From Acidobacteriota bacterium (GTDB lineage Bacteria; Acidobacteriota; Holophagae; Holophagales; Holophagaceae), in contig JAJYRN010000021.1 in NCBI GenBank assembly GCA_021794095.1, positions 1 to 46,264 on the forward strand: DNA of 46,264 bases. The letters are read 5' to 3'. The translations under genes and the position numbers were made by a program. This document shows positions 302-6,599 of the stretch, piece by piece; position 1 is the stretch's first letter, and each line of letters begins with the position of its first letter. Under the pieces are notes generated by a model. The model saw only the letters and a program-made list of their open reading frames with translations, was not told where the DNA came from and did no database searches.

Positions 302-595
302 CTATTCCCCGCATATTGCAACACTCAATAGCATCGATAGCAACTGAATTAAACCAACCATTCCAAGCGCAATAAGCAAATAAATAAACTTCATTTTCAT
401 GTAGACCCTGATTAACCAATATGCACTTATCAAACTAATAATCAGTGGTATCGACCATGATAGATCTTGAGATAGATTGGTGCCAAAATACCTTTCATGA
501 ATCCAAAAGAGGACAATGGTGCTGACGATCTGACCGATTATCAACGCCAATACAATTAACACATGCTTAAATTGCTTATTATCATTAGTCAACAT
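302..595 (-). CDS. Small multi-pass membrane protein, candidate immunity protein for the orphan Rhs tip
   Basis: This 97-residue protein is mostly hydrophobic. Membrane segments are visible at about 12-31, 47-64 and 69-92, separated by short polar loops. The ATG has a GGAG ribosome site five bases upstream, overlapping the end of the displaced Rhs tip (611-1006), so the two lie in the usual tip-then-immunity order. I recognise no named family. The immunity role is inferred from position, size and its likeness in size and topology to the membrane protein 1010-1306 that follows the main Rhs gene. AT-rich codon use sets it apart from the core genes. Confidence 0.6.
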   Translation of the reverse strand: MLTNDNKQFKHVLIVLALIIGQIVSTIVLFWIHERYFGTNLSQDLSWSIPLIISLISAYWLIRVYMKMKFIYLLIALGMVGLIQLLSMLLSVAICGE

Positions 596-610
596 AAAAA
601 CTCCATGAAG

Positions 611-1006
611 TTAGTGATAATAAATATAATTAGTTAACCCAATCAAGGTATTTGTTCCATCTTTACAATTATTACTAGGCAAACTGTAGTTTAAACTAAA
701 TCCAGAGAGCACACTAAAGGCTATCTCGACATATGGGACATAATCAGCCCCACCCACATAATGAAGGTATTGGACATCGTGTAGGGCTTGATTAGCCGCC
801 ATTACATCCGCAGGTGCATCTACAAACCAGCCAGAGCTTCCCCCATTGCCATAGCTATAGGTGTGCAGCAAGTTACCGCGTTGATTTGTCGTCAGGGTAA
901 ATGAATGAGAAAACCAACCATTTTTCGCGTCTGCTGAATTAGTACCGAATGTCCTGTCAACCCAATACGCAGCCGAATAATCTGTTTGCGCCGAAGGTTC
1001 TAGCTC
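611..1006 (-). pseudogene. Orphan (displaced) Rhs C-terminal tip without a start codon
   Basis: The frame is open for 131 codons after an in-frame TAA at 1007-1009 and ends at TAA 611-613. No ATG or GTG and no ribosome site occurs near its beginning; the only in-frame start-like codon is a TTG at 871, mid-domain. It begins ELEPSAQTD and, from AQTD on, is 126 residues long, close to the 130 residues after the same AQTD in the main Rhs protein. Both continue with a W-(L/V)-D-R pattern a few residues later. This fits a silent Rhs tip cassette that could recombine onto the main gene. Its fold and activity are unknown. It also contains a GGSSGWFVDAP stretch and two cysteine-poor Gly/Tyr-rich segments. 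Confidence 0.65.
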
Positions 1007-1009
1007 TTA

Positions 1010-1306
1010 CTAGCTCTTACTAGCCGAATTATCAAATAACGATGGATGGGGCATAAGTAAGATAGCAAAAAGGAAATACACTGATTTTATCCAGTAGCTA
1101 CAACTTGAAATTTCAACGACTAATCCTATTAGTAAAATAAACAATATTATGGTTATTAACAGTATTTTTGAATATTTTTTACCGAGTAACCCGAATTGAC
1201 CATAAAGAGGAACAAGCCATTTTAATGAAAATCCAGAAAACACCATGCCAATTAAAATGAACCAAAAAATGTTTATCCCGCTAAAAGGTGTTGAATTCAT
1301 AATCAT
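1010..1306 (-). CDS. Small membrane protein, candidate immunity protein of the main Rhs toxin
   Basis: It is 98 residues from the ATG at 1306. That start was chosen because GGGAGG lies eight bases upstream, while the frame continues to an upstream ATG at 1351 with no ribosome site. Hydrophobic segments at about 10-28, 45-64 and 70-85 predict three membrane passes. It begins 53 bases after the Rhs stop, the normal place for an Rhs immunity gene. No family is recognised. The frame ends at TAG 1010-1012, inside a 10-base direct repeat (1001-1020) that also contains the stop preceding the orphan tip. The immunity role is inferred from position. Confidence 0.65.
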   Translation of the reverse strand: MIMNSTPFSGINIFWFILIGMVFSGFSLKWLVPLYGQFGLLGKKYSKILLITIILFILLIGLVVEISSCSYWIKSVYFLFAILLMPHPSLFDNSASKS

Positions 1307-1359
1307 CAATTTAACCTCCCGATAAATGTATATGCAGGATCCCGTCATCATCTAAAAAG

Positions 1360-4300
1360 CTAAGGCATGAATGGGTTGAGGCCAGATGCGTTTACCGCTG
1401 AACCAATTGCATTGCCAATTTCAAAACCAGCGATACCTACCCCGGTGGCAATTGTTGCTACTCCAGCGCTGGCTAAACCTGCAGCAATCCATGACTCACC
1501 TGCAGTTGCGGCGGTTCCTGTGGCAGCGAAAAAACCTTCATCGAGATATGGAGAGGTCGCTGGCCAAGTAGGGAAATAGCCCCAATTAAGTCCGAAAGGT
1601 GTAACTCCCGTTACTCTTGTAGCCCATGCAGATGCGGCTTGTCCCAAGCTGATAGATCCTACCTTGCCAACTAAGCTATTGCCGACAAATTGATTGGTTT
1701 GATTAAAACTGCTCTTCCAACGATCTAGCCATGTACTTTGATCTGTTTGCGCCAAATATGAGTCGGTTATATCATCCGAAACCCATTGCCATGGTTCCTG
1801 GTTGATATCATAACTTTCAGATGTTATTACTTCTACAGAGGGGTGCTCCCAGCCACCTGTAATTTGGGACCCATCAGGTAATGTAAAATACATGGAATTA
1901 TTCTGCATTTGAGGGAAGTAATATCCACCATTGCCTGAGCTAATGCGATAATTTGGGTCTCCACCTCCACCTACGCAGCTGAATATACCACTATCAGGCG
2001 GAAGGGTTCTCATCCATTCGGCCAAGGATGAATTGTACCAAGTATTAGCATTTGCGTCCATTCCAGAAGGATCTGACATCATCAATGGACTGCCAAGCCC
2101 ATATGCATATTGGTCGATCGAGTTTGGATCAGCGCCTTGATCACTGTTAAGGAATCGGTGCCACTGAGGACTGTAGAATCGCCCCCGCATATAGACAAGG
2201 CCATCAACATCTGTCTGCAGGTGCCCGGTATACCCTGTCATCGGGATATAGGCTCCTGCATTTGGATAGGGAGACGTGAGGGATTCACCATATGGCCCGA
2301 ACATCTGTGCGCCCTGGAAGCCCGAGACCCCAGGACTCGTGACCAGAATCGGGGTGCCAAGGTGATCACAGTGCAACTCGTGGACCCCACTGGCATCGAT
2401 TTCGGCGATGGCAAGGCCCCCAAGGTAGACCACATCCCCCTTCCAGGCCCACGAGGTGCCTGAACCAGCGTACTCAGAAAGCATGAGGCCGCTGCTGGAG
2501 TAGGCGAATCGCCGGTTGTTGGCGATAGTTCCAGAGTCCAGCACCTGGAACCTGGTTCCGCTGGGAAGATACGCATAGGTCTCTGTCGAGCCATTTAGGG
2601 TGGTGCTACTCAGGCGTCCTAAGCCATCCCAGACGAATCCATAGGCCGAGGCGCTCCCTACCGAAGTCCCAGCCTGTTTTGCTTCCCCGTCCCCGTCATA
2701 ACTCCATTGTGTCGCAAACCCCTCCTGGGTCTGGGGTGGGATCTGATTTGTGGGCACCCCGTTTATGGACAGTGGGGCCGCGAAAGTGAAATTCGTGAAC
2801 CCGGGTGCGGCTCCAGCCTGAGCATTGGTGTTATTCCCAAAACCATCATGCTGGAGGGATTCCGAGATTCCCATTCCTTGACTTGTGGCTTGTGTAAGCC
2901 TCCCGAGCCAATCGTGAGTCAGACTTGTCCACTCACCTGCTTGGTTCAGATGGTTCAACGCGTCGTAGCCATATTCTCGAACAATAGTCGCTGCCCCGGG
3001 GGCAGTGATCGTCTCCGAATTAATCTGAGTCCCATCAGGAGTAAAGTCCCAGGTATCCGACGCACCTGAGACAAATTGAAGTCCACCCAGATGTCCCCAC
3101 CCCTCGGTGTCGTAGCTAACGTTGGTCAGAAGAAGGCCATTATTGGTAACGCTCGTGATTCGCCCAAAATTGTTTTGATCGTCGTAATGATAGATAATTT
3201 GCCGACCCTGCGGGTAAGTGATCGATGACATACGATTCACATTGGGATCGTAGCCATAAATGATCGCCCAAGGTGCCGAAGCCCCCTCAGGAGTAATGGT
3301 TTCAGAATGCACGCGACCGATGGCGTCTGGTGTATAGGAAATAGAGCCGGTCTGGTTTGCACTATTTGTGCTTGAACTCAGCAAAAAAAGACCATTATAA
3401 TTAAAATATGCGTTATCTGTTCCATTGACTACTGAACGAATTCGGCCCAAACCGTCATAGATTAAAGTCCGGATTCGCCCGTCATTTTCCCGGATGCTCA
3501 GTGGTAATCCCTGAATATTGTAAAGCGATCCATTATAGTTGTAAGTTGTTGTCCCCGTTTCAGGTTCTGTTTTACTTAGGAGTAATCCTAAGGTGGAATA
3601 ATTAAATGATCTCACTTGGGGCGTCTGCCCTGATGGCGTGATTGTAAGCGTGGTTACATGGCCTTGCGCGTCGTACTGCCAGGTTGTGACAGTTCCAAAA
3701 GGATCCGTGGCACTAATTGGGTTACCCCAAAGATCTAATGATTTGCTAGTTGTGAATGTCTGTCCAGTGTACTTCACGGTCTGGACCTGATTGCCAGAAC
3801 CGTCATCCGAGTAGCTATAAGCAACTTGAGGGCCTACTGGAGGGGTGACTTGAATCAATCTTCCCAGGGCATCAAACGATTTACTTGTCGTACGGACATT
3901 TCCTGCCGGGGACACTTCCTTAACCTGGACTAATTGTCCGTTCTGATCATATGAATAGGTCTCGACGACGCCGTCGCTTCCCCTGACCTTTTCGTAAGGT
4001 CGTCCGAAGCTATCGCTGTACACGGTGGTGGTGCGCCCATTCTTCTGGGTGATCGTTTCCACTTCACTAGGATAGGTCGTATTGATGGGTGCATCACCGG
4101 TACGTGTGGATTTGGTAATTCTTCCGTGAGCATCGTAACTCGTTCCAACAGTGACTCCGAGGCTATCCATATAGGAAGTGACTCGGTTTGCGGAATCATA
4201 GGCGAAGGACGTATCACTAACGGAATTGGTACACCCCGCCGTCGTTGGACCATCGTAGGTGGTGGTATTGCTGTTTGGCAATGCTGTCGTTGGGTCTAGA

Positions 4301-6453
4301 TAAAAAGTCTCTGATTTGCCACCACTTGTCGAAAATGATGCACCAGAAGCAAATGGTGCCTTGGTTTGAAGATGACCGTATCGATTATCTCCTTTTGGGA
4401 AGTAAGTGTAGTTCGTTCCGATTCCTGCCGAAGGGGTTCCAAGACAATATTGAGACAAAAGAAATGTGGTTGAATTGTAGGCATAGGACATTTGCTTGGG
4501 ATTTGGGTAGACACCATTCGCTTTGTTAAGACGCGATTCTGTGGTCGTAGTACACCGATTTGGATCCAGATACTCAGGATGGCGATCGTACGTATAGGAA
4601 ACATCGGATTCATAGGCATAGGGAATGCCGGGGCCTGAACCCGTCGTAGTAGAGGTTGGAGATCCTGTTTTGATATCCAAAGTGGCGCTGAAACTATGAG
4701 GAGGCGCACCAGTGGTCGCCGTATTGGCTGTCGACATACCTGTAAGGGTTCCGTCAACACCATCCAATGAATAGCTGTACTGAGTGGTACTCGTCGCATT
4801 CGCCCCAGCTACGATGATCTTGCTAGCAGAACCATTTCCATAATCTGGACTGCTTGGGATCGCGAACTGATACGTCGTGGTGGGATTGTCTGCCGTAACG
4901 ACGGGCTGACTATTCCATGTCTGAGTCCCAGACCACGCCTCATTGTAAGTATTGGTCCAGGCGGTCGCAGTAGCCGTGGTGGGGAGATTCCATGTGAAGG
5001 TTCGAGTCAAAGTCACACCCGAATTGGTCGCGGTGTTCTGCTGGACGCTCCTGTAGTTGTCCACCATGATGGTGGAACTTTGTGCCGCGGCTGGATCTAC
5101 CAAGCTGGTGTCCTGCCAGGTGATCCCCGTTTGGAGTTCAAGAGGATCCTTGAAGCCCGTCAGTTCACTGGCACCTGTAGGGGATTCGACGTTATATGAG
5201 AAATACCAATTCAGGTCCGATACTGGCCAAGGCCACGGGTTGGAGACTTGCTGCGGCACCGGAAGCTGGGCCCAGCCCAAGTCCGGTAGGGGCATGCTGG
5301 GGTTGCCAATACGCAGCCGGGTTGGTCGAAGCACGGGCCCTCCCGCAAGGGGCAGCATCGCGTCCGTGGTCGTCTGAAGATCCGGATAGGCCGTCACCTG
5401 GATGCTGGGAGCCTGAACATTGATAAAATCTGCCCGAAGGTAATCCCCCTTTACGCCACCACCGCCTGCGCTAGGCTCCGCCCACTGGAGTTGGACACCC
5501 TTCCCGAGCTGATTCAGCGCCTGGACCGTACGAACGGCCGCGATCCCACTTGGCAACCCGGTCGTGATATTCCGCCATTGAAAACTCACCCAGTGCCCGA
5601 ACCGATCCACCCAGAGCAATGGAACCCAGGCGTAGAGTTCCTTGGCATAGGCGTAAACCCTGGCTCTATCCCGATCCATCACGACGTAGTAACCCGAATG
5701 CGTACCCGTTGTGAATCCCACGGGTGCCACCGAGGCGACCTTGCTGGCCCAAGACCCCAAGTCGGCTGCCACCGCCGGGTAGGCAACCAAGGCTCCAGAT
5801 GAATCAATCGTGACCGCGCTCGCAGCCTTAGCCGCAAGACCAAATTGGGGCGGCAAACTGAACGTACCGGTCATGGTAGTGAAATCGTTAGAAGAGTGGA
5901 CAGTCCCATCCTCAAGTACGTAATACGGGTTTGGAGTGAATTGATCTAACTTGCCATAATCACCAGTGCCTGGTACAGATTGAGTATCATTTGAAGAGAT
6001 AAAACCAAAATCAATTGTTCCAAAAATTGGCCTAGCATAGCGGACAAAACCAGGAGCGTACATTCCTCCAGTTCCAATCATAGGAGAAATGCCAGTCTTA
6101 ATTGCAGCCGTTGCGCCAGAAAGGCTGATGTATCCACGACTATTAACGACTGGCCAAGCATTCGATGCATTGTACCTGAATACCACAGGAATAGGTATTT
6201 CCCCAGGAACAGCTCCTATTGGAATAACAAATGAAAGAGCACCTTTGCCCATATCCACCGAAAACCCATTTCCCGTGACAACTGGGAATAGGTTGTTCGA
6301 ACCGTCGGCTCCTCCAAGGGCAGGAGCGCCCGTGCTGACGCCCGTCATGGTCGCGTGAGGTGGATACAAGATCCGGTACGGGGATGTTTGACCGAAGAGC
6401 GTTCCAGCCAGGAATAGACCTGGCAAAATCTTAAATTCAATCAACTTTCTCAC
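1360..6453 (-). CDS. Giant Rhs/YD-repeat polymorphic toxin with N-terminal signal peptide
   Basis: About 1697 residues. A basic N-terminus and hydrophobic stretch ending near LAGTLFGQ form a Sec-type signal peptide. There is no PAAR or VgrG-like domain, so type VI delivery is not indicated. The middle is filled with YD repeats such as YDAHGRI, YDALNHL and WDGLGRL, which build the Rhs shell. The core closes with the conserved RGRFYSP...RFLNSD...YAYG...DPSGM motif, after which a 232-residue variable tip follows (1360-2058). The tip ends in a Gly/Ala-rich hydrophobic segment that could insert into membranes. Start: AGGAG at 6459-6463 overlaps a GTG at 6459, so the GTG at 6453, five bases on, is the better start. 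Codon use is less GC-rich than in neighbouring genes, suggesting transfer. Activity of the tip is unknown. Confidence 0.92.
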   Translation of the reverse strand: MRKLIEFKILPGLFLAGTLFGQTSPYRILYPPHATMTGVSTGAPALGGADGSNNLFPVVTGNGFSVDMGKGALSFVIPIGAVPGEIPIPVVFRYNASNAWPVVNSRGYISLSGATAAIKTGISPMIGTGGMYAPGFVRYARPIFGTIDFGFISSNDTQSVPGTGDYGKLDQFTPNPYYVLEDGTVHSSNDFTTMTGTFSLPPQFGLAAKAASAVTIDSSGALVAYPAVAADLGSWASKVASVAPVGFTTGTHSGYYVVMDRDRARVYAYAKELYAWVPLLWVDRFGHWVSFQWRNITTGLPSGIAAVRTVQALNQLGKGVQLQWAEPSAGGGGVKGDYLRADFINVQAPSIQVTAYPDLQTTTDAMLPLAGGPVLRPTRLRIGNPSMPLPDLGWAQLPVPQQVSNPWPWPVSDLNWYFSYNVESPTGASELTGFKDPLELQTGITWQDTSLVDPAAAQSSTIMVDNYRSVQQNTATNSGVTLTRTFTWNLPTTATATAWTNTYNEAWSGTQTWNSQPVVTADNPTTTYQFAIPSSPDYGNGSASKIIVAGANATSTTQYSYSLDGVDGTLTGMSTANTATTGAPPHSFSATLDIKTGSPTSTTTGSGPGIPYAYESDVSYTYDRHPEYLDPNRCTTTTESRLNKANGVYPNPKQMSYAYNSTTFLLSQYCLGTPSAGIGTNYTYFPKGDNRYGHLQTKAPFASGASFSTSGGKSETFYLDPTTALPNSNTTTYDGPTTAGCTNSVSDTSFAYDSANRVTSYMDSLGVTVGTSYDAHGRITKSTRTGDAPINTTYPSEVETITQKNGRTTTVYSDSFGRPYEKVRGSDGVVETYSYDQNGQLVQVKEVSPAGNVRTTSKSFDALGRLIQVTPPVGPQVAYSYSDDGSGNQVQTVKYTGQTFTTSKSLDLWGNPISATDPFGTVTTWQYDAQGHVTTLTITPSGQTPQVRSFNYSTLGLLLSKTEPETGTTTYNYNGSLYNIQGLPLSIRENDGRIRTLIYDGLGRIRSVVNGTDNAYFNYNGLFLLSSSTNSANQTGSISYTPDAIGRVHSETITPEGASAPWAIIYGYDPNVNRMSSITYPQGRQIIYHYDDQNNFGRITSVTNNGLLLTNVSYDTEGWGHLGGLQFVSGASDTWDFTPDGTQINSETITAPGAATIVREYGYDALNHLNQAGEWTSLTHDWLGRLTQATSQGMGISESLQHDGFGNNTNAQAGAAPGFTNFTFAAPLSINGVPTNQIPPQTQEGFATQWSYDGDGEAKQAGTSVGSASAYGFVWDGLGRLSSTTLNGSTETYAYLPSGTRFQVLDSGTIANNRRFAYSSSGLMLSEYAGSGTSWAWKGDVVYLGGLAIAEIDASGVHELHCDHLGTPILVTSPGVSGFQGAQMFGPYGESLTSPYPNAGAYIPMTGYTGHLQTDVDGLVYMRGRFYSPQWHRFLNSDQGADPNSIDQYAYGLGSPLMMSDPSGMDANANTWYNSSLAEWMRTLPPDSGIFSCVGGGGDPNYRISSGNGGYYFPQMQNNSMYFTLPDGSQITGGWEHPSVEVITSESYDINQEPWQWVSDDITDSYLAQTDQSTWLDRWKSSFNQTNQFVGNSLVGKVGSISLGQAASAWATRVTGVTPFGLNWGYFPTWPATSPYLDEGFFAATGTAATAGESWIAAGLASAGVATIATGVGIAGFEIGNAIGSAVNASGLNPFMP

Positions 6454-6599
6454 ATACACTCCTATAAAAATAGAACTTCAAGGCAAAGTACGAAAATTTT
6501 CAAAAACTCACATTCATTACAAAAATATTTCTATTGCTACATTCGAAAATCTAATGACACTTTCAGGCTAGTCGAAGCGAGTGTAATGAGACCCAGGAT

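Follow-up and report, generated by a model that had tools for sequence, protein, structure and literature searches.

A candidate displaced Rhs tip and immunity cassette behind an Rhs gene of the Holophagaceae

A 28-contig Holophagaceae genome has, near the start of its contig 3, an Rhs gene followed by what is probably a displaced, or orphan, Rhs tip accompanied by its immunity gene. We put a probability of about 0.84 on the full reading, in which the orphan tip would be silent until re-fused, the main tip would be toxic and exported, and the small membrane proteins encoded behind the tips would be protective. The layout of the locus, the absence of a start codon from the orphan frame, a short word shared by the two tips and the swapping of tip cassettes at this word in relatives can be read at the sequence level from the window, the whole stretch of 46,264 nucleotides analysed here, and from related loci. 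Displaced Rhs tip/immunity cassettes are elements of a known kind; for this lineage and this junction no description was found, and a literature search returned no mention of Geothrix and Rhs together. The locus would extend orphan tip/immunity arrays to Rhs loci of the Acidobacteriota (Holophagaceae), in genomes with no detected T6SS sheath gene, and would provide two toxin/immunity candidates of no known family.

Organization of the Rhs locus and its two tips

A search of its own genome revealed that the Rhs gene (Table 1) is the sole match for this Rhs type, and the N-terminus of its product resembles an export signal by eye. On the minus strand, the Rhs gene is followed at its 3' side by a gene for a 98-residue membrane protein, a start-less frame of 131 codons and a gene for a 97-residue membrane protein. 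This three-part order, first described in a sequence-only reading of the DNA, was reproduced base for base, and the ribosome sites ascribed to both membrane proteins were found upstream of them. Both proteins are strongly hydrophobic, with maximum 19-residue Kyte-Doolittle values of 3.2 and 2.8, respectively. The tip array forms a GC trough of 37-44%, compared to 68-73% in the adjoining genes. No terminator-like site was found from the end of the Rhs gene to the second membrane gene, so a single transcript is possible. As the window starts at the contig end, the visible DNA behind the second immunity gene amounts to ~300 bp. Close to the contig start, a GC-rich inverted repeat at positions 91-134 (GGTAGCGGC...GCCGCTACC) adjoins the end of a plus-strand frame (ending in ...EQHEAWVGVTWLKMQGAS and a stop), and is possibly a terminator or a repeat element.

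Table 1. Features of the Rhs locus in the window, with the tandem Rhs fragment loci of a related genome
Feature	Position	Strand	Details
Rhs (YD-repeat) gene	1360..6459	minus	1,699 aa from GTG; RHS_repeat 8.9e-31, Rhs_assc_core 1.3e-11
Variable linker, DPSG core border to tip junction	1753..2061	minus	about 103 aa
Main gene tip junction GGCGCAAACAGAT (AQTD)	1741..1753	minus	breakpoints in relatives
Main tip	1363..1752	minus	130 aa, Gly/Ala-rich, hydrophobic stretch towards end
Membrane protein 1	1010..1306	minus	ATG 1306, stop 1010, 98 aa, GGGAGG upstream; candidate immunity protein of the main tip
10-bp tandem duplication TAGCTCTTAC	1001..1024		perfect TAGCTCTTAC TAGCTCTTAC TAGC at the end of membrane gene 1
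Start-less orphan tip (putative)	611..1006	minus	131 codons 1006..614, stop 611-613; 126 residues from AQTD
Orphan-head tip junction GGCGCAAACAGAT	980..992	minus	word in common with the main tip
Membrane protein 2	302..595	minus	97 aa, GGAG upstream; candidate immunity protein of the orphan tip
G067 tandem Rhs fragment loci	L085 G067:C1:1319000-1333000; L086 G067:C1:2766000-2782000		

The Rhs core ends at DPSG (2062), past which the variable region comprises 233 residues, with AQTD about 103 residues in. AQTD itself was considered as the canonical Rhs core border and rejected on this ground. Counted from AQTD, the main and orphan tips have 130 and 126 residues, respectively, a recount that agrees with the near-equal lengths reported earlier. 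The two tips share the 13 bp of GGCGCAAACAGAT and then diverge. A shared word of this length was seen in none of 300 Markov-simulated pairs of the gene's last 420 bp and the downstream region, and in 1% of the simulations that used the gene's last 800 bp. The window contains 5 copies of the heptamer CGCAAAC where 4.8 are expected, which is no enrichment; it matters by position, not by frequency. Against displacement, 13 bp is short and the orphan tip retains no Rhs core fragment, having nothing more in common with the main gene.

The start-less character of the 131-codon stretch was confirmed: ATG, GTG and TTG codons occur in its frame only from codon 46 on, and the first of them, a TTG, has no ribosome site. 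Between the end of membrane gene 1 and the orphan tip, the duplication of TAGCTCTTAC gives rise to TAG TAA in the shared frame, and the orphan frame sits in the same frame directly past these stops. Such a position could suit a small gene in its own right, using an unusual start or translation coupled to the upstream membrane gene, and the TTG at codon 46 would yield a product of 86 aa. We consider this highly improbable, given that no ribosome site is present, that a start at codon 46 would drop the shared junction, and that the orphans in three related genomes (G069, G143 and G436) also start at the junction word just past a stop, the one in G069 having a fused counterpart in Geothrix campi.

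A 131-codon open frame is found in 1.4% of random stretches of equal composition; thus the frame alone is weak evidence for a displaced tip, and the relatives carry the case. The frame might also be a decaying pseudogene remnant that has no role, with only the immunity gene kept, if anything, an account that is compatible with displacement and concerns present use. It has no start codon and no relatives, and a comparable orphan in G419 is already frame-broken. By contrast, the 131 codons are intact, against that 1.4% chance value, and the frames in G069, G143 and G436 are intact as well, so that we view complete decay as doubtful, if well within reach.

Neither tip matched a known toxin family in Pfam, NCBIfam or other profile and sequence searches, in agreement with the earlier impression that neither resembles a recognised toxin. 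For the orphan tip, sequence searches gave no match in its own genome, 60 relatives, 396 genomes of the phylum, plasmids, phages, viral contigs, PDB sequences, Pfam, NCBIfam and PHROGs, nor in 84,980 species genomes searched with exact-peptide seeds only, and comparison against all gathered Rhs loci gave no relative. Its class is therefore assigned via its position, its junction and sister loci in the same family. Structure prediction, which the sequence-only reading had proposed for both tips, provided no usable model, as the AlphaFold pLDDT values of 34.5 and 36.9 are too low to be useful, and toxin activity could be read neither from the sequences nor from these models. A permuted papain-type fold of the orphan tip (early His, late NNC) was an impression that found no support and is not claimed.

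Fused and displaced tips at sister loci

Full-length Rhs searches covered 47 genomes of the genus, whose named members among the searched genomes include Geothrix campi SG10 and Geothrix limicola Red804, and a profile search with the main tip covered 93 genomes of the class. Together they turned up genome G069, in which locus L040 has the same four-part order as the window: an Rhs gene with its tip after PQTPK, a 69-aa membrane ORF, a start-less frame (PQTPKTEKKPSCASKWWQATKQRFNATN...) that again begins with PQTPK, and a 140-aa membrane ORF. The main and orphan tips of G069 have 15 bp in common (GCCGCAAACTCCGAA). The G069 orphan resembles the fused Rhs C-terminus of Geothrix campi (G024), with 64% identity over 113 aa (2.6e-48). 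The main tip of the window also matches the G. campi Rhs tip, with 31% identity (2e-8), and is a third, more distant member of this family, the partner membrane proteins of the related tips being weakly alike (27%, E 0.05). As judged by these alignments, members of a single tip family occur fused to Rhs cores in two species and as a displaced tip in a third, as C-terminal displacement would predict.

The database searches envisaged in the sequence-only reading were thus productive in part, giving relatives of the main tip in G024 and G069, none of the orphan tip and no clear one of either membrane protein. Similarly, the expected fusion of an orphan tip to an Rhs core elsewhere was found for the G069 orphan in G. 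campi, and the window's own orphan had no relative in any search.

Further orphans show a similar organization. In G143, a start-less frame of 146 codons opens with PPPQTNG downstream of the Rhs gene, past a stop codon, and has a membrane ORF behind it; the frame has no detectable relationship to the main tip of the window. In G436, a start-less frame that opens with LAQSE begins at TTGGCGCAATCAG, directly after the stop of an immunity-type gene. Genome G419 possesses a decayed orphan (L123, G419:C1:2395100-2401500, about 1510-1990), where TCGCAAGCAG, the exact word of the main gene, lies upstream of a broken frame with no start. The broken frame gives the impression of leading into a CHAP/NlpC-like domain. 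The G143, G436 and G419 orphans all sit behind Rhs immunity-type genes, and no Rhs core fragment was seen in these three or in the G069 orphan. The same genus also contains the enterobacterial pattern of core-carrying orphans, as G067 has tandem Rhs core fragments with different tips (Table 1). Altogether, the G069 layout, the fused counterpart in G. campi and the G143 and G436 orphans support, at class level, the earlier proposal that the start-less stretch is a displaced Rhs tip.

The partners encoded in NSDQG-type Rhs loci (L041, L080, L088, L092, L093, L094 and the window) are nearly all small membrane proteins, and in the other Rhs group soluble or exported partners predominate. This predominance of membrane proteins in the NSDQG group, as well as the lack of a match to a known toxin family, would also fit non-toxin tips that serve a surface Rhs protein as ligands or in adhesion, with the membrane proteins as their partners. 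However, toxin/immunity systems are characterised by the co-transfer of tip and partner and by orphan arrays (PMC3150448, PMC3967940), and a ligand or adhesion role appears improbable to us.

Junction word and homology breakpoints

The homology breakpoints between Rhs genes fall at an in-frame NCG-CAA-RC, encoding PQT, SQT or AQT, at 26-109 residues past the DPxG border; the two tips of the window carry this word as GGCGCAAACAGAT. In three recent exchanges, the break coincides with a single word of about seven bases or lies a few bases from it. The Rhs genes of G069 and G022 share 94.5% identity up to CCGCAAACTCC, past which they are unrelated as far as a terminator-like stretch that lies behind the immunity genes. 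Those of G022 and G026 have different linkers before the word, and from the word on share 98.4% identity over 853 bp that span the tip, a small membrane gene and the terminator-like stretch. In the other Rhs group, two paralogues of G419 share 98.6% identity over 295 bp and part at TCGCAARCAG. In-frame CGCAAAC is present in 10 of the 14 NSDQG-group tips, compared to 0.40 expected from codon shuffling; for the tips of the other group the count is 6 of 19, compared to 0.42. Not every array is explained by the word: in G067, the tandem fragments have their breaks at other places, after longer pieces of core, and L077 and L121 part about 10 bp ahead of the word, which L121 lacks. At the other end, tip cassettes of three genomes, in L040 (7276-7309), L046 and L049, close with an identical 34 bp that surround a terminator-like hairpin (GCCCCGGACCTCCGGGGC); a similar stretch lies behind another locus, and this element may be where the exchanged unit ends on its right side.

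PQT/AQT might instead be a conserved protein segment, such as a linker or a cleavage site, in which case the tips would have been exchanged by longer homology that has since diverged and the DNA word would be a by-product. QT is indeed kept at the protein level in both Rhs groups. Moreover, CAA, the codon of the junction Gln, outnumbers the other Gln codon by 99:66 (60%) in these AT-rich tips, so its constancy at the junctions is partly a matter of composition. Three observations argue in the opposite direction: the recent exchanges, at 94-98% identity, already break at the word; the residue ahead of QT varies among P, S and A while its codon keeps CG; and the orphans retain the word and nothing upstream of it. 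We thus hold the protein-level explanation to be unlikely, though a serious contender.

Joining by short homology, a mechanism proposed for Vibrio T6SS arrays (PMC5361080), and a site-specific event could each produce the observed junctions, and the data do not separate the two. More speculatively, NCGCAAAC might be a dedicated recombination site, with tip/immunity units that start at the word moving between Holophagaceae Rhs genes, perhaps as circles by site-specific recombination; such a gene-cassette system, distinct from ordinary homologous recombination in the Rhs core, seems to us a long shot. The junction points to a place for cutting and joining tips that is distal to the accepted Rhs border, which makes the question of Rhs tip exchange testable. 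A word of about seven bases is too short for ordinary homologous recombination. More cassettes could be found by looking for an in-frame NCGCAAAC past DPxG and for a second copy downstream of the immunity gene.

Displacement model and comparison with known systems

The direction of displacement is inferred, as are export, toxicity, immunity, silence and re-fusion. By analogy with orphan modules described elsewhere (PMC3150448, PMC2935791, PMC3967940), we propose that a foreign tip and its immunity gene enter the Rhs gene at (N)CGCAAAC, the coding word for [P/S/A]QT, such that the incoming tip joins the Rhs shell in frame. The former tip and its immunity gene would be pushed downstream, now without a start codon. 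The main Rhs protein would be exported, carrying a putative membrane-active toxin tip, and membrane protein 1 would protect the producer. Membrane protein 2, encoded by the old immunity gene, could still be expressed and might protect against neighbours that carry the old tip, and the old tip itself would be silent unless recombination re-fuses it to an Rhs core.

Export is probably of the Sec type, and the tips may act on the inner membrane, as suggested by the membrane-protein partners in the NSDQG group, the lack of VipB in seven genomes and the signal-like N-termini of several Rhs proteins; the Gly-rich hydrophobic end of the main tip family also fits action on the inner membrane. The T6SS sheath protein VipB, used as a single marker, was not found in the window's own genome and six related ones, with a positive E. 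coli control. T6SS-delivered Rhs effectors are recognised by PAAR/VgrG linkage together with a T6SS, and no PAAR match was found.

Orphan tip/immunity modules are known from both CDI and Rhs loci, as the sequence-only reading had noted (PMC3150448, PMC2935791, PMC3967940). Similar to such modules, the window has a tip frame with no translation start signals and with the junction motif of the main gene at its start, next to a small gene with its own ribosome site. The CDI orphan cdiA-CT/cdiI modules likewise consist of a start-less toxin tip and an immunity gene behind the full-length gene, with a short junction motif at the start; this motif is VENN, and each module extends exactly as far as the next one (Poole et al. 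2011, PMC3150448). Some of them, like the window's orphan, have no upstream homology (PMC3150448). The window differs in its carrier, which is an Rhs YD-repeat protein instead of the filamentous CdiA of CDI two-partner systems, in its junction, which is [P/S/A]QT (AQT in the window) encoded via NCGCAAAC instead of VENN, and in its toxin and immunity roles, which are candidate ones (compare PMC3150448).

In Salmonella, an orphan tip and its immunity gene also lie behind rhs, and rhs-orphan is expressed only once fused to the main gene (Koskiniemi et al. 2014, PMC3967940). Fusion there proceeds via 522 bp at 95% identity, compared to the 13 bp offered by the window (PMC3967940). Another parallel in layout comes from C-terminal displacement in Enterobacteriaceae, where tips fused in one strain are displaced in another (Jackson et al. 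2009, PMC2935791). As in the window, where the orphan tip is putatively silent, the Rhs gene is followed there by silent tips, mostly lacking start codons, in a low-GC trough (PMC2935791). However, the enterobacterial orphans retain parts of the core that are nearly identical to those of the main gene, with the border at DPxGL (PMC2935791); a core fragment is usual in that family, not obligatory, and the window has 13 bp in common only. The loci described here share just a 10-15 bp junction word, 26-109 residues past DPxG, with the exception of G067 and its core-carrying orphans.
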